From Deltaproteobacteria bacterium (GTDB taxonomy: Bacteria; Desulfobacterota; Binatia; UBA9968): DNA of 63,922 bases. Each line of letters starts with the position of its first letter. Position 1 is the stretch's first letter. Shown here piece after piece: positions 2,285-52,930 of the stretch. Location: contig SHYW01000011.1 in the NCBI GenBank assembly GCA_009692615.1, forward strand, positions 1 through 63,922, in the 5' to 3' direction. A program made the position numbers and the translations under genes. A model generated the notes under the pieces. It was given only the letters and a program-made list of their open reading frames with translations. It was not told the DNA's origin and searched no databases.

Positions 2285-2400
2285 CTCTCGCAAAGGCGCA
2301 GCGATCGGAGAAGAAGAAGCGAATTTGTTTGTCTACTGTTATTCTTTTTTTCCGAACTTGGCGTCTTTGCGCCTTGGCGAGAGAAACTTCCGAATCCGAA
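2285..2400. repeat. Hairpin repeat, CGCAAAG family
   Basis: Arms CTCTCGCAAAGGCGCA (2285-2300) and GCGTCTTTGCGCCTTGGCGA (2361-2380) are inverted copies around an A/T-rich loop, and TTCCGAA follows the right arm as in the copies at 15031 and 15989. The gene-free stretch 2163-2556 holds only this hairpin and the next one. Confidence 0.75.
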
Positions 2401-15030: not shown

Positions 15031-15117
15031 CGCAAAGGACACAAAGAGCGCAAAGTTCGGAGTTTATTATTTCTTACCTTTGCGTCTTTGCGCCTTTGCG
15101 AGAGTAATTTCCGAACC
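15031..15117. repeat. Hairpin repeat, CGCAAAG family
   Basis: CGCAAAGGACACAAAGAGCG (15031-15050) and TTTGCGTCTTTGCGCCTTTG (15079-15098) are inverted copies with an AGTTCGGAGTT core and TTCCGAA after the right arm. It lies in the divergent gap between the CoA-transferase and the citryl-CoA-lyase-like gene. Confidence 0.8.
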
Positions 15118-15988: not shown

Positions 15989-16075
15989 ACTCTCGCAAAG
16001 GCGCCAAGCACGCAAAGTTCGGAACTTCTTAGTTCCTATCCTTAGCGCCTTTGCGTCTTTGCGAGAGATATTCCG
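15989..16075. repeat. Hairpin repeat, CGCAAAG family
   Basis: ACTCTCGCAAAGGCGCCAAG (15989-16008) and GCGCCTTTGCGTCTTTGCGA (16045-16064) are inverted copies, with AAGTTCGGAACTT at the core and ATTCCGAA after the right arm. It is the closest relative in the window of the copy at 15031. Confidence 0.8.
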
Positions 16076-16163: not shown

Positions 16164-16925
16164 ATGAGCTACCAAAATATTTTGACCGAGCGCATCGACA
16201 AAGTCGCGCTCGTCACGCTTAACCGGCCGGAAAAACTCAATGCGCTCAGCTACGAACTCGCCTGCGATCTCGAGGAAGAACTCGGCAAGATTGAAAATGA
16301 CGACAGCGTTCACGTGGTGGTGTTAACCGGCGCCGGGCCGCGCGCCTTCACCGCCGGCGGCGACATTCATCAAATGGTGAAATCGACGCCGGAAGAAATG
16401 GCCGCGCGCACCGATCAACGGCGCGAGATGAACTGGCATCTGGCGACGTTTACCAAACCGATCATCGGTGCCATCAATGGACTAGCCTACGGCGCCGGCG
16501 CGCAGTTGACGACCATGCTCGACATTCGCATCGGCTGCGAACACGCCGAGATTCAATTTCTCGCGGCGAAATACGGCCGGGCCAATTCCACATGGTCGCT
16601 GCCGCTGGTCGTCGGCATGCCCAAAGCCAAAGAGCTGCTCTACACCGGCCGGCCGATCAAAGCCGAAGAAGCCCTCAGCATCGGCTTGCTCAACCAAGTA
16701 GTTCCCTGCGCGAATTTGTTGACCAGCGCCATCGACATGGCCAAACAGATCGGCGCCAATGACCCACGCATGGTCCAGGGCATTAAGAAATTACTCGACG
16801 ACGACGTCGGCGCCCCCTGGCGTGAACGTTTCGACAACGAACAGAGCGCGCGCAAGAACAAACTCAAAGCCAACTCGCCGAAAGAAGGCTTCAAAGCATT
16901 TTTGGATCGCAAAGGAATCCGCTAG
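16164..16925 (+). CDS. Enoyl-CoA hydratase/isomerase family protein
   Basis: The 253-residue crotonase-fold protein hydrates or isomerises unsaturated acyl-CoA. Visible family features are VTLNRPEKLNAL (17-28), the first oxyanion-hole segment FTAGGDIHQM (62-71) and the second, INGLAYGAGAQL (100-111). The usual second catalytic glutamate position near 130-140 is not clear, so the exact reaction is open. AAGGAGAAACG precedes the ATG. It follows the citryl-CoA-lyase-like gene by 198 bases, filled largely by a hairpin repeat. Confidence 0.85.
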   Translation: MSYQNILTERIDKVALVTLNRPEKLNALSYELACDLEEELGKIENDDSVHVVVLTGAGPRAFTAGGDIHQMVKSTPEEMAARTDQRREMNWHLATFTKPIIGAINGLAYGAGAQLTTMLDIRIGCEHAEIQFLAAKYGRANSTWSLPLVVGMPKAKELLYTGRPIKAEEALSIGLLNQVVPCANLLTSAIDMAKQIGANDPRMVQGIKKLLDDDVGAPWRERFDNEQSARKNKLKANSPKEGFKAFLDRKGIR

Positions 16926-16965
16926 ATGTATCTTTCGCAATTCGCGCGACTAACCAGTTGCAATT

Positions 16966-17073
16966 CCGTCATACCGGCGCAGGCCGGTATCCATCTTTGT
17001 CTTCGGTTCACCAGCATCAACCTGGATGCCGGCCGGAGTCTATCCTGAGCGCCGTCGAAGGGCCGGCATGACG
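16966..17073. repeat. REP-like hairpin with an inserted short repeat
   Basis: CCGTCATACCGGCGCAGGCC (16966-16985) pairs with CTGGATGCCGGCC and GGCCGGCATGACGA (17021-17073). The right arm is split by about 22 bases containing TCCTGAGCGCCGTCGAAGG. That inserted sequence resembles GTCCTGAGCAAAGTCGAAGG, found inside another hairpin family at 22942. Confidence 0.75.
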
Positions 17074-17097
17074 ATCTAACGCACCAGGAGAACTCCC

Positions 17098-18252
17098 ATG
17101 TCCCTCAGCGTCGCTGAAAACGAACTGATCACTCACGTCGGCCCCGGCACGCCGGGCGGCGAAATGATGCGCCGCTATTGGCATCCCATCGGCTTCGCCA
17201 GCGAACTCAAAGGCCGGCCGCTACGCCGCCGATTGCTCGGCGAAGACCTCGTGCTATTCCGCGACGATCGAGGCCAGCTCGGCATTCTCACCTTGCGTTG
17301 TCCGCATCGCGGCACGTCGCTGGAGTTCGGCCACATCGAAGACGGCGGCCTGCGCTGCTGCTATCACGGCTGGCTGTTCGCCACCGACGGCAAGATCATG
17401 CAAATGCCCGGCGAGCCGGCGGACAGCACTTACAAAGACCGCATCAAGCAAAAAGCCTACAAGCTCGAAGAGCTGGGCGGCTTGCTGTTCGCCTATCTCG
17501 GTCCCGAACCCGCGCCGCTCTTGCCGCGCTGGGATGTGATGATTCGCGAGGACGGCGTGCGCGCCCTTGCCGGCCGGGTGATGCACTGCAATTTTTTACA
17601 GGCGGTGGAAAACAGCGTCGATCAACATCATTTCAAATGGCTCCATCGCACGCCGAAAACGCGCCTGTGGTCGAATGAAAAACTAACCTCCGATCCGTTC
17701 GACTATGGGATCAAAGCGACTTTCACTCGCACCGTCAGCCAAGGCTCGTTCATGACCAAAAGTTTTTTCCTATTTCCCAACATGAACAAGGTCGGTTACC
17801 ACTTGAACGAAGACCACCCCGCCGCCTTCGCGGCGACCCATGAAGGCTACGAAGCGCTGCGCTGGCGTGTGCCGGTGGACGACACCAACACGATGCATTT
17901 CACGCTTTACTTCGCGCCGATTGTGAATGGCAAAGTCACGGCGAAAATCCCCAAGGATCAATCGGCGGAAGGTTTAGGCGACAGCGTACTCGGCAAATAC
18001 CGTTGGGATGAAGAGACCAACTGGATCGCCCGCGGCGATCAAGACCGCTGCGCCCAAGAAAGCCAAGGACCGATCTTCGACCGCAGCGGCGAACACCTCG
18101 GCGTCTCGGATGAAGGCGTGATCCAGCTGCGCCGCATGTTTAGGGAATGCATCGAGGCCGTGCAGAACGGCCAAGACCCCGTCGGCATCGTCCGCAATCC
18201 CGAGGTCAACAAAATGATCACCATCGTGCCGGGGGAAATTAAAGTTGCGTGA
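17098..18252 (+). CDS. Rieske non-heme iron oxygenase, catalytic subunit
   Basis: The 384-residue oxygenase has a Rieske [2Fe-2S] site (C68-P-H70 and C87-C-Y-H90) and a mononuclear iron site of the form DxxHxxxxH (D175, H178, H183). It resembles phthalate 4,5-dioxygenase-type and other one-component-alpha oxygenases that hydroxylate or demethylate aromatic acids. The protein starts with the signature ENELITHVGPGTPGGEMMRR, shared with the genes at 19710 and 51312. CAGGAG precedes the ATG. No reductase or ferredoxin gene is near, so electrons must come from a partner encoded elsewhere. Confidence 0.85.
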   Translation: MSLSVAENELITHVGPGTPGGEMMRRYWHPIGFASELKGRPLRRRLLGEDLVLFRDDRGQLGILTLRCPHRGTSLEFGHIEDGGLRCCYHGWLFATDGKIMQMPGEPADSTYKDRIKQKAYKLEELGGLLFAYLGPEPAPLLPRWDVMIREDGVRALAGRVMHCNFLQAVENSVDQHHFKWLHRTPKTRLWSNEKLTSDPFDYGIKATFTRTVSQGSFMTKSFFLFPNMNKVGYHLNEDHPAAFAATHEGYEALRWRVPVDDTNTMHFTLYFAPIVNGKVTAKIPKDQSAEGLGDSVLGKYRWDEETNWIARGDQDRCAQESQGPIFDRSGEHLGVSDEGVIQLRRMFRECIEAVQNGQDPVGIVRNPEVNKMITIVPGEIKVA

Positions 18253-18284
18253 TGTTGTCCCATGGGTCAAGAAACTTTCCGATT

Positions 18285-18370
18285 CGTCATACCGGCGAAA
18301 GCCGGTATCCATCCTTGTCCTTAGGTTCGCCGGCAAAAGCCTGGATACCGGCCTGCGCCGGTATGACGGA
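18285..18370. repeat. REP-like hairpin, CGTCATACCGGCG family
   Basis: CGTCATACCGGCGAAAGCCG (18285-18304) and GGATACCGGCCTGCGCCGGT (18343-18362) are two outward-facing palindromic units ending in ATGACGGA. They form a classic paired REP structure between the Rieske gene and the binding-protein gene. Confidence 0.8.
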
Positions 18371-18450
18371 ATAGGACGCGGGTGAGTCTAGTATTGTGAA
18401 TTTTTGAATTCATCGAATTGGAATTGAACAGCAACACTTCGGAGAAAAGT

Positions 18451-19542
18451 ATGAAACAGTCCGTCATCGGAGTTTTCCAGCTCAGTGGTCCGCTGCTCGC
18501 GCTATTTCTCTTCGGCGCGTCTCATCTAAACGCCGCCGACACGCTGCAATCGCTCATCGCCGGTGCGAAAACCGAAGACGAAATCACTTTCATCGCCGGC
18601 GCGCAGACCTTCGGCGGACGCAAAGGGCTGGCCGATCTCGAAGCGGCATTCAACAAACGTTTCGCCCTCAAGAGCAAAATCAATTTCGCCGCCGGTCCCG
18701 ACATGAACGCCCGCGCGGCGCGTCATATCACCGAGATCAAAGCCGGGCGCAAAGTCTCCTCCGACATTTTCCTCGGCTCCCAGTCGCATCAGGCGCTGCT
18801 GCACAAAGAAAACGCCCTGGAGAAAGTAAACTACGCCGGCCTCTTTTCTTGGGTGACCAAGGAGATGGAAATCTTTCCTGGCGAAACCGTGCTGACCTAC
18901 ACATCGCCCAACGGCATCGTCTACAACAAAGATTTGATTCCCAAAGACAAGGCGCCGAAGAATTACGCCGATCTCGTTGACCCGAAGCTGAGTCCCACTT
19001 GGGCCGGCAAGATTGCGATTCCGCCTTACGTCGCCTGGCTCGCCGAACTCTCTCTCGTCTGGGGAGCGGACAAGGTAAAAGATTACGCGCGCAAGCTCGT
19101 GGCGATTAGCGGCGGGCGCTTGCGCTACAGCGAAGAAGAGCGGGTCGTCAGCGGTGAGTTTCCCATCATGGCGAACTTTGGCGATGCGCTTAGCGCGATG
19201 TGGTCATGGCAGCCCAAAGGCGCGCCGCTGGTCGCCTTGCCCGGCGTCTCGCCGATCAACACCGACTATTTTCAGTTGAGCGTGCCGAAAAATGCCGTCC
19301 ATCCCAACTCGGCAAAACTTTTCGCCGCCTTCATGACTACGCGCGAAGCTCAAGACATCATGCAGAAGCACGAATCGCGCAGCTCCCATTTGGTCGAGGG
19401 CACGTTGATGCAAAAATACCTCAAGGATAACAAAGTCGCCGTGCAAGAGCCCAAACTGTCGATCAGCTACTATCTTAAGAACGAAGACGCCGAAGGATTA
19501 CAGTTCAAAGAGGAGCTGGCGAAAATTTTGAAAGGGTCATGA
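18451..19542 (+). CDS. Extracellular solute-binding protein, family 1 (iron/polyamine-like)
   Basis: The 363-residue protein has a signal peptide (MKQSVIGVFQLSGPLLALFL onward to about 30, cleaved near NAADT) and a family 1 or 8 type periplasmic binding fold. Visible segments include SNGIVYNKDL-like SPNGIVYNKDLIPKDKAPKN near 155 and ANFGDALSAMWSW near 234. The start at 18451 is preferred, since GGAG lies 7 bases upstream, over an ATG 33 bases earlier. It is sandwiched between two Rieske oxygenase genes on the same strand, suggesting it binds their substrate or a related acid. No permease genes are near. Confidence 0.75.
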   Translation: MKQSVIGVFQLSGPLLALFLFGASHLNAADTLQSLIAGAKTEDEITFIAGAQTFGGRKGLADLEAAFNKRFALKSKINFAAGPDMNARAARHITEIKAGRKVSSDIFLGSQSHQALLHKENALEKVNYAGLFSWVTKEMEIFPGETVLTYTSPNGIVYNKDLIPKDKAPKNYADLVDPKLSPTWAGKIAIPPYVAWLAELSLVWGADKVKDYARKLVAISGGRLRYSEEERVVSGEFPIMANFGDALSAMWSWQPKGAPLVALPGVSPINTDYFQLSVPKNAVHPNSAKLFAAFMTTREAQDIMQKHESRSSHLVEGTLMQKYLKDNKVAVQEPKLSISYYLKNEDAEGLQFKEELAKILKGS

Positions 19543-19556
19543 GAAGTCAAAAGAAT

Positions 19557-19641
19557 CCCTCGATACGCGCTGCGCGCTACTCGGGAAATCGGTCGACTTG
19601 AATCCGATTCCCCGAGTAGGACCGAAGGTCCGTATCGAGGG
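19557..19641. repeat. Hairpin repeat, CTCGATACGCGC family
   Basis: CCCTCGATACGCGCTGCGCG (19557-19576) begins the left arm, which continues CTACTCGGGAAATCGG. The right arm reads CCCCGAGTAGGACCGAAGGT and ends CGTATCGAGGGG near 19641. Two further copies lie at 52668 and 52845. Confidence 0.8.
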
Positions 19642-19709
19642 GCCTTTACACCTGAGCAGCGCAAAACACTGGACACTGATTCAAACGAACTAAACCAGGA
19701 GCGAAAACC

Positions 19710-20843
19710 ATGTTGTCCAAAGAAGAAAACCAACTGATCACCCACGTCGGTCCCGGCACGCCGGCCGGACAAATGATGCGCCGTTATTGGTGGCCGGTGG
19801 GTTTTTCCGAACATGTCAAAACCAAAGGCAGTCCGGTGCGCGCGCGCTTGCTCGGCGAAGACTTCGTGCTGTTCCGCGACGGCGCGGGAACTCTCGGCAT
19901 GGTCGATCTGCATTGCTCCCATCGCGGCACCTCTCTTGAATTTGGACGGGTGGAAGAGAACGGCATCCGCTGCTGCTACCACGGCTGGCTCTACGATGTG
20001 AAAGGCAAATGTCTGGAGCAGCCGGCGGAACCGGCGGACAGCACTTTCAAAGAGCGCATCCAACATCCCGCGTACAAAGTCCAAGAGCTCGGCGGCTTCA
20101 TCTTCGCTTACATCGGCCCCGATCCCGAGCCGCTGATGCCGCGTTACGATTTGCTGCTCGAAGAAAATGGCGAGCGCGTTATCGGCGCCGGCACGGAATA
20201 TTGCAACTGGCTGCAGCGCGCAGAAAATTCCGTCGATCAAACTCATCTAGTCGCGCTGCACGCCCCCGAGTATCCGCATATGGCGCTCAAGCGGCCGGAG
20301 ATCGGCTGGGAAAAAACCGCCTACGGCGCCAAGATCACCATGCACGTGCCCGGAGTGTCGAAACCGAAACATTCGCATTGGGTCTTTCCGTCGCACACGC
20401 GCCACACCACCGCGCGCAAAGGACGGATTCCCGACCACGCGATTCGCTTTCGCGTGCCCACCGATGACACCATGACGGCGACCTACTGGCTGCGCTTTAC
20501 GCCCTACACGGGCGAGGATCGCGGCAAACCGCTGGTGCTTAAAACCATCGGCTTCGAAGACGACAAGCCCGGCGTTTACACCCGCGTCGACGACGGTTGG
20601 TGGGGTGTCGCCTCCCACGACCAAGACCGCGTCGCCCAAGAAAGCCAAGGGCCGATCTACGATCGCAGCAAAGAACATCTTGGCGCGTCGGATGAAGGAG
20701 TGATTCTTCTGCGCAACTTGATCAAGGAATCCATCGAAGCCGTACAGCAGGGCAAAGATCCGTTCTGGATTCTGCGCCAACCGGAGCAAAACGAGCGCAT
20801 CACCTTCGACGCCAGCATGGCCGAGATCGGCGCGCTGGGATAA
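19710..20843 (+). CDS. Rieske non-heme iron oxygenase, catalytic subunit
   Basis: The 377-residue protein is a close relative of the oxygenase at 17098. It has the Rieske ligands C69-S-H71 and C88-C-Y-H91 and the iron ligands D176, H179 and H184. The middle part differs (for example a shorter loop after residue 190), so the two probably take different substrates. ACCAGGAGCG precedes the ATG. The cluster Rieske, binding protein, Rieske is all on one strand with hairpin repeats in both gaps. No ferredoxin or reductase is encoded nearby. Confidence 0.85.
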   Translation: MLSKEENQLITHVGPGTPAGQMMRRYWWPVGFSEHVKTKGSPVRARLLGEDFVLFRDGAGTLGMVDLHCSHRGTSLEFGRVEENGIRCCYHGWLYDVKGKCLEQPAEPADSTFKERIQHPAYKVQELGGFIFAYIGPDPEPLMPRYDLLLEENGERVIGAGTEYCNWLQRAENSVDQTHLVALHAPEYPHMALKRPEIGWEKTAYGAKITMHVPGVSKPKHSHWVFPSHTRHTTARKGRIPDHAIRFRVPTDDTMTATYWLRFTPYTGEDRGKPLVLKTIGFEDDKPGVYTRVDDGWWGVASHDQDRVAQESQGPIYDRSKEHLGASDEGVILLRNLIKESIEAVQQGKDPFWILRQPEQNERITFDASMAEIGALG

Positions 20844-20891
20844 GCCCGGCGCTAGCTACTTACTTCACCGACCGCGGCAAAACATTGGGCG

Positions 20892-21884
20892 CTATAGATT
20901 GATCTCCGTCGAATAAAAACTTTCCAGCAGCCGTTTGCGCAGCGCCGCGTCGCCGCCGGGGAGGCGGTCGAACTTGGTGGTTTGATCGGTTTTACTTAGA
21001 ATGCGCCGGCCTTCTTCATCTTCGGCCATGCCGAGCAAGATCGTTTCCAAGCGACTTGCGGTCGCGATGGCGAGATCGGCGCGCACCGAAACCAAATGGC
21101 GCGGAAATTTTTCGGTCTGGCCCAAAATATTAATGTCGGCCTTCTCCTTCGCACCCAAGTGCGCGTAATCGTCATCACTGAAGGCACCGGCGTCGGCCCG
21201 CTTGGTCATCACCGCGTCGAACAATTTTTCCTGCGAATGGGCGAAAAAATAATGTAGCTGCGCCGGTGAGGCATTGGCGTCGAACTCTTTTTTCTCGGCG
21301 AGCTTGAGGCCGCGCCGCTGGAGAAAAAACTTCGCCATCAGATAACCCGAAGTCGAACCGGGATCTTCGAAGGCGATGGGTTTGCCGCGCAGGTCGTCGA
21401 TCCTTCTGATGCCGCTGTCCTGTCGGACAAAAATCAAACTTTGATACTCCGCGAGGCCGCCCTTCCAACGGCGCAGCAGCGTCTTGCCGGCGTCGTGCAC
21501 GTAGTTGATCGTGTAGGTCGGATAGACGCTCTCCATGTAGAAGTCGACGCGCTTTTGTTCCAGAAGCTTGACCAGCTCAAAGGGCGTCGGTGCGACCACC
21601 ACCTTGGCTTCGAGGTTCGAACCCGGCGCCAGCTTGCGCGCCACATACGTTACTAAATCGCGAAAATGTTCTTCGATGGCCGTACGGTTGATTTCCGACA
21701 CCAATCCCAAATTGAGCGTTTTCACCGCCGCCTGATTGCCGTTCTGCGCGTGGGCGTCACTGCGCCAACCGAACGCGACCGACAATGTCATGGTGAACAA
21801 CAGCCGCCAGCCGACTACTTTTCCAAAGTAGCGCAAAGTTCTTGACGCCATCGAGGGATTTCTCGTAGAGATGTTCATAGTCAT
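20892..21884 (-). CDS. PhnD-type phosphate/phosphonate substrate-binding protein
   Basis: The 330-residue protein has a long N-terminal signal region (to about residue 46, ending DAHAQ) and a PhnD-like fold: TPFELVKLLEQKRVDFYMES (98-117), YQSLIFVRQDSGIRRIDDLR near 145 and AFEDPGSTSGYLMAKFFL near 170. PhnD proteins bind phosphonates, phosphite or related anions, but many orphan relatives bind other solutes. No phnC or phnE partner is present. Several in-frame starts occur in the first 12 codons with weak ribosome-binding sites. It converges with the Rieske gene. Confidence 0.8.
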   Translation of the reverse strand: MTMNISTRNPSMASRTLRYFGKVVGWRLLFTMTLSVAFGWRSDAHAQNGNQAAVKTLNLGLVSEINRTAIEEHFRDLVTYVARKLAPGSNLEAKVVVAPTPFELVKLLEQKRVDFYMESVYPTYTINYVHDAGKTLLRRWKGGLAEYQSLIFVRQDSGIRRIDDLRGKPIAFEDPGSTSGYLMAKFFLQRRGLKLAEKKEFDANASPAQLHYFFAHSQEKLFDAVMTKRADAGAFSDDDYAHLGAKEKADINILGQTEKFPRHLVSVRADLAIATASRLETILLGMAEDEEGRRILSKTDQTTKFDRLPGGDAALRKRLLESFYSTEINL

Positions 21885-21937
21885 TAGGCTCTACAAGATT
21901 GCTGGAAACTTGGCAAGAATAGAATTACGGAGGTCTC

Positions 21938-22813
21938 ATGCGCATCGCACTTGGATTACCTAGCCGCATCGCTAACGCCTCGGGCGCGTTGATGCTCGAA
22001 TGGGCCACCCGCGCCGAGCAAGGTCCGTTCTCCAGTTTGGTGGTCACCGATCGCGTCGTATCGCAAGCTCTCGAACCGTTGTCGGTGCTGGCCATGGCCG
22101 CGGGCGCGACAAAAAGAATTCGGCTGATGACCAGCGTGGTCATCGGTCCGACGCGCGAAACGACCTTGCTGGCGCGCCAAGCCGCGACCATTGACACGCT
22201 GTCCGCCGGCCGACTGACGTTGGGCGTCGGCATCGGCGTGCGTAAGAACGACTATCTCGCCAGCGGAAATAATTTTCATCGCCGCGGCCGTTTGTCGGAA
22301 GATCAATTCGCGCTGCTGCGCCGGCTCTGGGCGGGCGAAAAGTTATCCGAGGAAACCGGACCCATCGGCCCACCGGCAGTTCATCCCAGCGGACCCGAAC
22401 TACTTATCGGCGGCTACGTGCCGGCCATCGCCCAGCGTATCGGCAAGTGGGGCGACGGCTACATGGCGCCGGGCGGCGGCGAACCGGAAGCGATGGCGAA
22501 AATGTGGCGGGATATTCAACAAGCGTGGAAAGAAAACCAACGCCAAGGCCAGCCGCGCTGGGTCGGCGCCAGCTACTTCGCGCTGGGACCCAACGCCAAC
22601 GATCACGCGGCGCGCTATATCAACGCCAACTACGGCTACAATCCCGAGCTCGCAAAGCGCAGACTCAGCGCGCTGCCGACCACTGACGAAAAGTTGATCG
22701 AAGCGATCCAGCGCCAAGCCGACATGGGCGTCGACGAATTTATTCTCCGCCCCTGCGCCGAAGATCTCGACCAAATGGACCGCCTCGCCGAAGTCGCGGC
22801 GAAAATCGTTTGA
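21938..22813 (+). CDS. LLM-class flavin-dependent oxidoreductase
   Basis: The 291-residue protein has the bacterial luciferase-like TIM barrel: MRIALGLPSRIAN at the start, TSVVIGPTRETTLLARQAAT (65-84), LSAGRLTLGVGIG (88-100) and GGYVPAIAQRIGKWGDGYM near 150-170. These enzymes use FMN or F420 to oxidise small organics such as sulfonates, nitriloacetate-like compounds or ketones. The length is at the short end for the class. CGGAGG precedes the ATG. It is divergent from the PhnD-type gene with a 53-base gap, so a shared promoter region is likely. Confidence 0.85.
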   Translation: MRIALGLPSRIANASGALMLEWATRAEQGPFSSLVVTDRVVSQALEPLSVLAMAAGATKRIRLMTSVVIGPTRETTLLARQAATIDTLSAGRLTLGVGIGVRKNDYLASGNNFHRRGRLSEDQFALLRRLWAGEKLSEETGPIGPPAVHPSGPELLIGGYVPAIAQRIGKWGDGYMAPGGGEPEAMAKMWRDIQQAWKENQRQGQPRWVGASYFALGPNANDHAARYINANYGYNPELAKRRLSALPTTDEKLIEAIQRQADMGVDEFILRPCAEDLDQMDRLAEVAAKIV

Positions 22814-22833
22814 ACTGCGGTGGGTTTTTAATC

Positions 22834-23128
22834 CGTCATACCGGCGCAGGCCGGTATCCATCCCCGATCGAGATTGCTGTAGGGGCAAGGCGCGCCTTGC
22901 CCTCCTGGATTTTCAAGTTCAGATTTTTCTCTCGCAAAGCATGTCCTGAGCAAAGTCGAAGGGGCGCAAAGACGCCAAGTGACGGGCAAGGCCCGTCATC
23001 CCGAGTGGAGGCGAGGGATCTCAGAAATATTTCTCCCTTCGGTCGAAATGACGGCTTTCCCGATCGTTCGCGCCTTTGCGCCTTTGCGGGAAATCATCCG
23101 ATGTCTTTTCTTGCGTCCTTTGCGGCCA
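22834..23128. repeat. Nested cluster of at least four repeat families
   Basis: From left to right: a half REP unit, CGTCATACCGGCGCAGGCCG (22834-22853); GTAGGGGCAAGGCGCGCCTT (near 22881); the CGCAAAG hairpin left arm from 22929, interrupted by GTCCTGAGCAAAGTCGAAGG (22943-22962); a separate hairpin from GACGGGCAAGGCCCGTCATC (22981) to AAATGACGG (23054), lying in the loop; then the CGCAAAG right arm (23070-23090). CTTTGCGGCCAATC follows near 23117. This is the only content of the gene gap 22814-23135. Confidence 0.75.
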
Positions 23129-23135
23129 ATCAGCA

Positions 23136-24140
23136 TCACCGCCTACTCAGCCCCGAGAAAAAACCGCTTTGCTCAATGCGCCGCACGAACGACGCGTCGA
23201 AGATTGCATTGGCATCGGTCTGCTTGGCTTGCGGATACTGCAACGAAAGAATATCCAAACCGCTGCGGATCACTGACAGCAAAGGCGTCGGCACCAGCTC
23301 CATCTCAGCGAGCGTGTTCTGATAGGTCTCTTCAAGAATCTCGTCGGCCGCGCCGCGCAGGTTCTTGCGCATGACCGCCAGGCTCTTCTCTTTCTGAGTT
23401 TTAAAAATATACAGTCCTTCGATCAGAGTTTTCAGGAAACGCTCGATCAGCTCAGGATTTTTCACGACTGTCTGGCGCAACGTCGTAACCGTGTTAGACG
23501 GATACGTGATGCCGAGCTTTTCGTAATTGACCAGCTCGCGAAAACCCAACTTCTTGGCGCTCAAATTGAGCGGCATGTTAAGCGGCGCGGCGTCGACGAT
23601 GCCGCGCTCCAAGGTTTGCAAACCGAGCGCGGGTTCGCCGACGACCAAAAGCTTTACGTCGCGGTCGGGAACCAGTCCCAGCTTCGCGCGCAAAACATAT
23701 CTGATGATCGAATCGGAGATCGAACCGGCGCGGCCGACGCCGATGGTCTTGCCGCGCAAATCTTCAGGACTTTTGATCTCCGGCTTTGAATAGATCGCGC
23801 CGCCGACTTTGTTCATGAAGTTGGCGACGATCACTTGATCCTTGGCGCCGACGATGTGCGAAGTCAGCGCGCCGCTGCCGGTGGCGATGACGATCGGCAC
23901 ATCGCCGCTCATCAGCAACTGCTGCGGCCGCATTCGGCCGGCGTAAACCGCTTTGAGATCGATGCCGTATTTCTTGCCGAGGCCGTCCTCCACGGCGATC
24001 CACATCGGCGTGTAATGGCCGGAGAAGGAAGCGTAGCCGACTGTGACAGGATCCAATTGCGTTGCCGCGACGGCGCTCGCGACGAAAGTCGAATACCAGC
24101 CAAGGACAGCTACAAGACAGAGAATGATTCCAAGCATCAT
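23136..24140 (-). CDS. NMT1/THI5-type ABC substrate-binding protein
   Basis: The 334-residue protein has a signal peptide (about 1-26, ending SAVAATQ) and the two-lobed SsuA/TauA/NMT1 fold: GYASFSGHYTPMWIAVEDGL near 35, TSHIVGAKDQV near 93 and DLRGKTIGVGRAG near 127. It should bind a small organic solute in the periplasm. It is clearly paralogous to the genes at 30855 and 31898, which share RPQQ, TSHIVGxKDQV, a VPDRDVK element and an LSLQYPQAKQTDA-like tail. No permease or ATPase is near. Confidence 0.85.
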   Translation of the reverse strand: MMLGIILCLVAVLGWYSTFVASAVAATQLDPVTVGYASFSGHYTPMWIAVEDGLGKKYGIDLKAVYAGRMRPQQLLMSGDVPIVIATGSGALTSHIVGAKDQVIVANFMNKVGGAIYSKPEIKSPEDLRGKTIGVGRAGSISDSIIRYVLRAKLGLVPDRDVKLLVVGEPALGLQTLERGIVDAAPLNMPLNLSAKKLGFRELVNYEKLGITYPSNTVTTLRQTVVKNPELIERFLKTLIEGLYIFKTQKEKSLAVMRKNLRGAADEILEETYQNTLAEMELVPTPLLSVIRSGLDILSLQYPQAKQTDANAIFDASFVRRIEQSGFFSGLSRR

Positions 24141-42813: not shown

Positions 42814-42834
42814 CTCTCGCAAAGCATGTCCTGA
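42814..42834. repeat. Truncated CGCAAAG arm with CATGTCCTGA junction
   Basis: CTCTCGCAAAGCATGTCCTG (42814-42833) is identical to 22929-22948, including the junction between the CGCAAAG arm and the inserted CATGTCCTGA sequence. The rest of the hairpin is absent. Confidence 0.8.
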
Positions 42835-42842
42835 TCCCATCT

Positions 42843-52597: not shown

Positions 52598-52930
52598 CCG
52601 TCATTCCGGCGACGGCCGGAATCCAGGCGGGGTGGACGGTGGATCGCGACCCTCTACCACGTAGCGCCCCTCGATACGCGCTGCGCGCTACTCGGGGAAT
52701 CGGATTTACCACCTAGTATCCTGAGTAGGACCGAAGGTCCGTATCGAAGGATGTTCCGAATCTAGCAGAACGTCTTTCCGGCGCAGGCCGGAATCCAGGG
52801 GTGGCTGTGGAGCGCTGGGCGCTCGCTACCCGTTGCCGCAAAACGCCTCTCGCTATGCGCTGCGCGCTACTCGGGGAATCGGATTTGTGACCGATTATCC
52901 TGAGTAGGACCGAAGGTCCGTATCGAAGGA
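52598..52930. repeat. Twofold array of REP half unit plus CTCGATACGC hairpin
   Basis: A REP half (CCGTCATTCCGGCGACGGCC, 52598) and a CTCGATACGCGC hairpin (52668-52750) are followed by the same pair again (GTCTTTCCGGCGCAGGCCGG near 52772; hairpin 52845-52930). The two hairpins differ in the loop and in a few arm positions. The arrangement fills the gene-free stretch 52590-52938, where nothing else is seen. Confidence 0.8.

Follow-up and report, generated by a model that had tools for sequence, protein, structure and literature searches.

A 24-nt DNA unit nested within bacterial palindromic repeats: a probable ultra-short mobile element

GTAG REPs and REPINs are mobilised by RAYTs, and the double-hairpin elements and GC clusters of fungal mitochondria are tiny, thought to be mobile and in some cases inserted in one another. 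Another class, the CGTC-tagged REPs, comprises short hairpins from several phyla, often arranged as facing dimers, for which the text of PMC3733652 gives no dedicated transposase; that paper describes REP dimers within palindromes in A. variabilis, T. roseum and H. neapolitanus, and the RPEs of R. conorii are stated to have a CGTC tag. REPs also serve as targets for insertion sequences, which in the text of Tobes and Pareja (2006, PMC1525189) include IS1397, IS621, ISPpu9, ISPpu10 and others.

The locus considered here lies in a contig of a Deltaproteobacteria bacterium (SHYW01000011.1), the whole 63,922-nt stretch of which is referred to below as the window. A gap of 322 nt between the convergent open frames 21938-22813 (+) and 23136-24140 (-) contains a mosaic of short repeats consisting of a CGTC-type REP, a perfect palindrome and the CGCAAAG palindrome B (Table 1), the last being imperfect and having its left arm opened by CTCTCGCAAA at 22929-22938. 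By reading, the REPs named A and D have the hallmarks of CGTC REPs, namely CGTC, an AT-start stem, a CCA-like tail and facing dimers: CGTCATACCGGCGCAGGCCGGTATCCA is present at both 22834 and 16967 and the facing pair occupies 22994-23053, with D ending in ATCT, not CCA.

The initial annotation described this region as repeats nested inside repeats, with an insert in the left arm of the CGCAAAG hairpin and a different hairpin in its loop, and both were indeed seen, the nesting being further borne out by empty copies of B in the same window (Table 1; a third unit-free CTCTCGCAAAGGCGC lies on the minus strand at 15090). Comparison of the occupied B element with the empty ones of the window gives a difference of exactly 24 nt, which corrects the length of 20 nt first quoted for the insert. 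The unit can be written as GCMTGYCCTGAGC-NNN-GTCGAAGG, and its site in B is CGCAAA^GGCGC. We regard the insert, with a probability of roughly 0.7, as a discrete ultra-short mobile unit which is inserted precisely before a purine, at hairpin tips, in B and sometimes in genes, and which is also multiplied as a passenger of other repeats.

Table 1. Positions of the repeats and of the nested units in the window.
Feature	Position	Strand	Remarks
CGTC-type REP (A), CGTCATACCGGCGCAGGCCGGTATCCA	22834..22860	+	CGTC class after PMC3733652 (text)
Perfect 20-nt palindrome, GGGCAAGGCGCGCCTTGCCC	22883..22902	none	
CGCAAAG palindrome B with nested elements	22929..23094		left arm from 22929, right arm about 23070-23094
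24-nt unit, GCATGTCCTGAGCAAAGTCGAAGG	22939..22962	+	interrupts left arm of B
CGTC-type REP dimer (D), left member	22994..23021	+	in loop of B
CGTC-type REP dimer (D), right member	23030..23053	-	in loop of B, opposite orientation
REP dimer (A)	16967..17073		right member with unit relative in loop
28-nt unit relative, CGGAGTCTATCCTGAGCGCCGTCGAAGG	17034..17061	+	in apical loop
Truncated junction copy, CTCTCGCAAAGCATGTCCTGA	42814..42834	+	
B copy without unit, empty site CTCTCGCAAAGGCGC	2285..2382		plus-strand CTCTCGCAAAGGCGC
B copy without unit, empty site	15990..16067		plus-strand CTCTCGCAAAGGCGC

Boundaries of the unit and its insertion sites

Methylomonas sp. DH-1 has the unit on its closed plasmid NZ_CP014361.1, in frame within the CDS WP_054758358.1, where it is translated as ACPERSRR; the same stretch is present on NZ_AP019778.1 of M. 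koyamae, and the two records therefore represent one event. A paralogous module approximately 2.4 kb downstream can be aligned to either side of the insert (67% identity over 138 residues), and precisely the eight residues are absent from it; at the DNA level it has 1 base where the gene has 25, with no duplication. This paralogue is an independent check of the 24-nt boundaries. Assembly error, which had been named as a possible source of the junctions, is unlikely because many genomes, and two closed isolate plasmids as well, contain the unit.

Among the fetched loci, tolerant matching of GCMTGYCCTGAGC-NNN-GTCGAAGG yielded 178 occurrences in 75 different contexts (6+6 nt), a set that leans towards CGCAAA contexts because many of the loci came from the CGCAAAG pattern (119 stretches). 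The target-site duplication that had been suggested around the CCTGAGC insert was looked for and none was seen: in the 75 contexts a 2-nt identity was found 5 times (6.7 expected), a 3-nt identity once (0.24 expected) and a 4-nt identity not at all. In a scan of viral contigs, selected independently of context (62 stretches, 58 distinct sites), the base to the right of the unit was G at 47 of the distinct sites, A at 11 and C or T at none. With the unit taken out, a GAGC-N3-G(T)CGA tip is re-formed at 6/58 of these sites, compared with 0, 1, 1, 0, 0 and 1 for six shifted positions. At one locus (L498), of two facing hairpins separated by 18 nt, one carries the unit at its tip and the other is empty. 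Open frames surround 44 of 60 viral-contig units, which says little because the G+C content is high. Two exact scans for orthologous empty sites of two viral-contig insertions found none, including none from a near-identical genome, and the phage records gave no useful empty site.

Within the window CCTGAGCNNNGTCGAAGG occurs exactly twice (17044 and 22945) and, with up to three mismatches, nine times versus 2.3 expected, a number reached by 0 of 100 shuffles; the whole source genome has 42 exact copies versus 0 for the reversed pattern. A related sequence had been placed in the right arm of the REP hairpin at 16966: it is present, though not in an arm, since it stands in place of the apical loop in the right-hand REP (17024-17073), the structure of which is GGATGCCGGC, 28 nt, GCCGGCATGACG, with a junction common to four loci of the source genome (L037, L050, L194 and L227). 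Likewise, the recurrence of the arm/insert junction at 42814 holds for the first 21 nt (CTCTCGCAAAGCATGTCCTGA), where the match ends, leaving a truncated copy. At 42830-42838 this copy breaks between CCTGA and TCCC, as does a cassette junction at L343, an agreement of four bases that may be due to chance. Elsewhere in the window, a further A-type CGTC REP dimer (18285-18368) has no nested unit, and a 108-nt direct repeat (52599-52930; 85% identity, spacing 179) adjoins CGTC-type REPs and contains a variant tip, TATCCTGAGTAGGACCGAAGG, in both copies.

The unit or longer relatives with the same tip are found in apical loops of the REP at 17024-17073, of a MITE family of the source organism's bacterial family, of viral-contig hairpins and in three-level nests. 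A general rule that the unit is always inserted at a hairpin tip was nevertheless not supported by flanking-stem tests over all sites, which gave p=0.79 in the source genome (14 classes), p=0.02 in G043 (11 classes) and no excess in G041 (3 classes). In the viral-contig set the mean flanking stem was not above that of shuffles, and stems of at least 6 bp were present at 4/58 sites versus 0.75 expected (largest shuffle 4). The insertion site in B is no clear hairpin tip, nor is that in Methylomonas, at which no hairpin was seen. Matches in Sinorhizobium, located at the end of a coding region which in some records is that of 3-methyl-2-oxobutanoate hydroxymethyltransferase, were taken as chance. 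Short tandem-like repeats (CAAAACTCAAAAC; ATTGGAGA) enclose the tip units of L285 and L292 (named Omnitrophota/other genomes and G043) and might have arisen as target duplications or by chance.

Multiplication within host repeats

In the source genome, by reading, the tip is carried by several classes of host, including B, a second CGCAAAG-like context, the loop of the A REP (4 loci), D-type REPs, a CACGAAG repeat and others, with constant junctions and different NNN. The same B/unit junction is shared by 14 B copies (14/15 tolerant matches, chosen loci), and this partly supports the proposal that the composite spread after the insertion, though the unit also occurs in non-B hosts. Repeated insertion at a preferred site may also have taken place, given these other hosts and one B element in another genome (L078) with two consecutive units that have different NNN. 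As for relatives, the whole composite is absent from the orthologous gap at two of the three congener loci read: in G003 the gap has 46 nt between matched flanks (346 in the window) and no B composite, and in G004 it has an unrelated REP dimer and again no B composite. G002 has a different right neighbour, and there the motif is carried by other B and CACGAAG composites. The B composite would be one case of a unit multiplied as the passenger of a host repeat, the spread of the composite being part of the story.

The tip also forms T3, a paired family with ends CTAGCAGGNTGCTGAAAAA and two facing hairpins. T3 is classed as a MITE family by its terminal inverted repeats CTAGCAGGNTGCTGAAAAA, which it has in common with an element coding for a DUF772/DDE_Tnp_1 transposase in G023 (C431, locus L386), the only candidate parent among the genomes searched and one that we take to be IS5-like; no relative was found in the source genome at E<=1e-30. 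Anchoring on the terminal repeat, the matches of which were sampled as 30 loci and 58 chosen stretches (a subset of the matches), gave 97 unique segments; 55 were scored as T3 and 42 were left out as falling below the threshold or as other elements with the same ends. Inserts of at least 18 nt are present in 14 of the 55, from six genomes, and in 12 of these 14 they are at an apical loop (11 by the aligner, and L387 by reading, the aligner having placed it elsewhere). In L411 and L415 the insert is in a stem, where L387 has a second one. With junction classes assigned by eye, six of seven are at the loop plus or minus 3 nt (p=2e-4), one of the six by reading; the aligner alone gives 5/7 (p=0.003). 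Two MITE copies with the unit at the loop (L349, L374) match the empty consensus once it is excised, and L445 and L387 are, by reading, nests three deep. Separately, a cassette of ~57-60 nt (CCCTCGACAGGCTCGGGACTAAAGG...) is found at the T3 hairpin loop in L343 and L358 of the source genome and in L392 of G007, with the same junction in two genera.

Could the unit be a passenger only, having entered B and each host repeat once, with all later copies moved by host machinery? The constancy of the junction within each host class, the match between the MITE ends and the presumably IS5-like element of G023, and the sharing of NNN by close pairs in some genomes (in one other genome the three closest pairs have identical NNN, with 0/9 NNN sites differing) would all be explained in this way. 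This reading is nonetheless quite improbable, as the 75 different contexts, the 58 distinct viral-contig sites and the insertion in a gene need many separate insertions. The suggestion of a hypermutable NNN was also dropped, being inconsistent between genomes and other flank columns being equally variable: differences between close pairs for NNN versus flank were 0.53 vs 0.11 (17 pairs) and 0.19 vs 0.08 (12 pairs) in two genomes, 0 vs 0.085 in a third (3 pairs) and 0.67 vs 0.09 in a fourth (one pair).

The tip motif and its distribution

The motif TGAGC-NNN-GTCGA occurs 75 times in the source genome versus 6 for the reversed control, and 48 of the 75 have at least three complementary pairs outward from the T-A pair (shuffled flanks average 28, maximum 36), two-base loops also being common among the matches listed. 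Among 160 flank classes, complementarity at stem pairs 1-3 was seen in 96, 109 and 86, where the shuffled means are 69, 62 and 52, and each exceeds all of 500 shuffles; pairs 4 and 5, at 32 and 46 of 160, show no clear excess. Folding parameters give no stable hairpin for the lone 24-nt unit, and tandem G-A pairs, which such parameters do not show, may lie below a three-base loop at the tip.

Motif and control were counted in 15 genomes, chosen as holding the composite or being the source genome itself. Several phyla include genomes with a strong enrichment of the tip motif: motif/control counts were 70/2 in Sphingomonas and 8/2 in a Sphingomonadaceae MAG; 50/7 in Ardenticatenaceae, 11/2 in a Chloroflexi MAG, 160/1 in Aquidulcis and 40/14 in Chloroflexaceae; 159/2 in a Planctomycetota MAG; 19/1 and 10/1 in two Omnitrophota MAGs; and 39/12, 100/8, 170/9 and 28/2 in a Proteobacteria MAG, Syntrophobacter, a deltaproteobacterial MAG and an uncultured bacterium, respectively. 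Neomarinimicrobiota, at 5/5, has no excess. Small excesses prove little because the reversed control is too low, the median in the same class outside the source family being 28 for the motif versus 8 for the control.

A constant tip with a covarying stem, in a mosaic that at 22834-23128 lies between convergent genes, might also suggest a protein-binding or RNA element, kept by selection near genes and nested only incidentally. We consider this very improbable in view of the 0 Rfam matches in 16800-23400, the variation in the number of motif matches from 13 to 192 among 17 genomes of the family, and the two of three congener loci in which the orthologous gap has no composite.

Possible mechanism and known systems

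The ends are precise, no duplication is seen, a purine follows on one side, loops are frequent landing places and the sequence resembles a hairpin, all of which points to the joining of single-stranded DNA. The unit, with its constant tip, short covarying stem and variable triplet, would move as single-stranded hairpin DNA, and an enzyme acting in trans, perhaps of the HUH type, would join it into exposed loops of single-stranded DNA, an idea that we put forward only tentatively. It is found precisely inserted and without target-site duplication before a purine, mostly G, at the tips of REP, MITE and REPIN hairpins, even those of its own kind, at CGCAAA^GGCGC of B and sometimes in genes, and the spread of the B, T3 and REP composites adds to its copy number. 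Insertion without target-site duplication is a feature shared with IS200/IS605-like (HUH) elements.

No enzyme mobilising the unit was found among the genomes searched. The source genome has two Y1 transposase genes, with no REP-like flank by reading, one of which has a unit-like tip about 0.2 kb upstream. A Y1 transposase as the driver gained no support, its number within the family being uncorrelated with the number of motifs (Spearman -0.002, n=17); over 118 genomes the coefficient is 0.34, uncorrected for kinship. By reading, the Y1 gene at L061 (G000 C78) seems to be flanked by long inverted repeats (GTCAGACTTGCCTAA...) and not by REPs, resembling the TIR type in the text of PMC3733652.

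Template switching, in which a strand growing during replication stalls at the tip of a hairpin, goes on to copy a different hairpin and then returns, would need no transposase. It would make nested hairpins mere replication accidents and would account for loop junctions, the lack of duplication, both orientations and nests of nests, as well as for a deletion in L362 the ends of which are, by reading, the two loops of one MITE copy. Accidental copying should, however, give ragged ends, whereas unrelated contexts, among them a gene with no hairpin, show identical 24-nt ends, which makes this explanation unlikely. By analogy with what has been proposed for REPs, we would prefer HUH-like single-strand insertion to template switching, albeit with low confidence.

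That a 24-nt DNA without a gene is an independent mobile element in several phyla, inserted precisely before a purine by some enzyme that favours hairpin tips, has in our view slightly less than an even chance of being correct. If this holds, 24 nt is enough for a mobile DNA of bacteria, among the shortest mobile DNA units known, and the unit offers a marker, simple to search for, of an insertion activity common to distant phyla. It would also account for hairpins within hairpins, which repeat annotation would break up as if the pieces were unrelated, and for extra stretches of eight residues in predicted proteins, since 24 is a multiple of three and a unit entering a gene in an open frame adds eight residues. 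A testable question is raised by this, namely what inserts REP-like hairpins, both the unit and the CGTC REPs as presented in the text of PMC3733652.

Compared with described systems, A and D of the window begin with CGTCAT, like CGTC-tagged REPs, whereas the unit has a short stem, keeps its tip and not its foot, and is nested inside REP loops. Its consensus, GCMTGYCCTGAGCNNNGTCGAAGG, has no CGTC tetranucleotide at an end and, with covariation clear for pairs 1-3 only, differs from the CGTC REP stem of 8-9 bp with an AT start; nesting of this kind in REP loops was not met in the running text of PMC3733652. A search of the literature with motif strings, eight-residue peptides and subject words (figures and most subscription journals lying outside its scope) gave no paper recognisable by title or abstract as a description of the unit. 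Judged by terminal inverted repeats plus target-site duplication, the unit is not a MITE (4-nt duplication in 0/75 contexts). With GTAG REPs and REPINs, the subject of PMC2817692 and PMC3116915, it shares being a short non-autonomous hairpin present in many copies, although its consensus is without the GTAG tag of the GTAG REP/RAYT system. For the insertion sequences in the text of PMC1525189 REPs are likewise landing sites, but those guests are complete elements that have a transposase, and the present one has 24 nt and no gene. Rickettsia palindromic elements, named in the text of PMC3733652, are also palindromic repeats that occur in frame within genes, and the unit differs from them in lacking the CGTC tag given there for R. 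conorii.

The double hairpins and GC clusters of fungal mitochondria are organellar and are likened to the unit by description. We place the unit among the short interspersed palindromic repeats and keep open the bolder reading, that of a mobile element of 24 nt.
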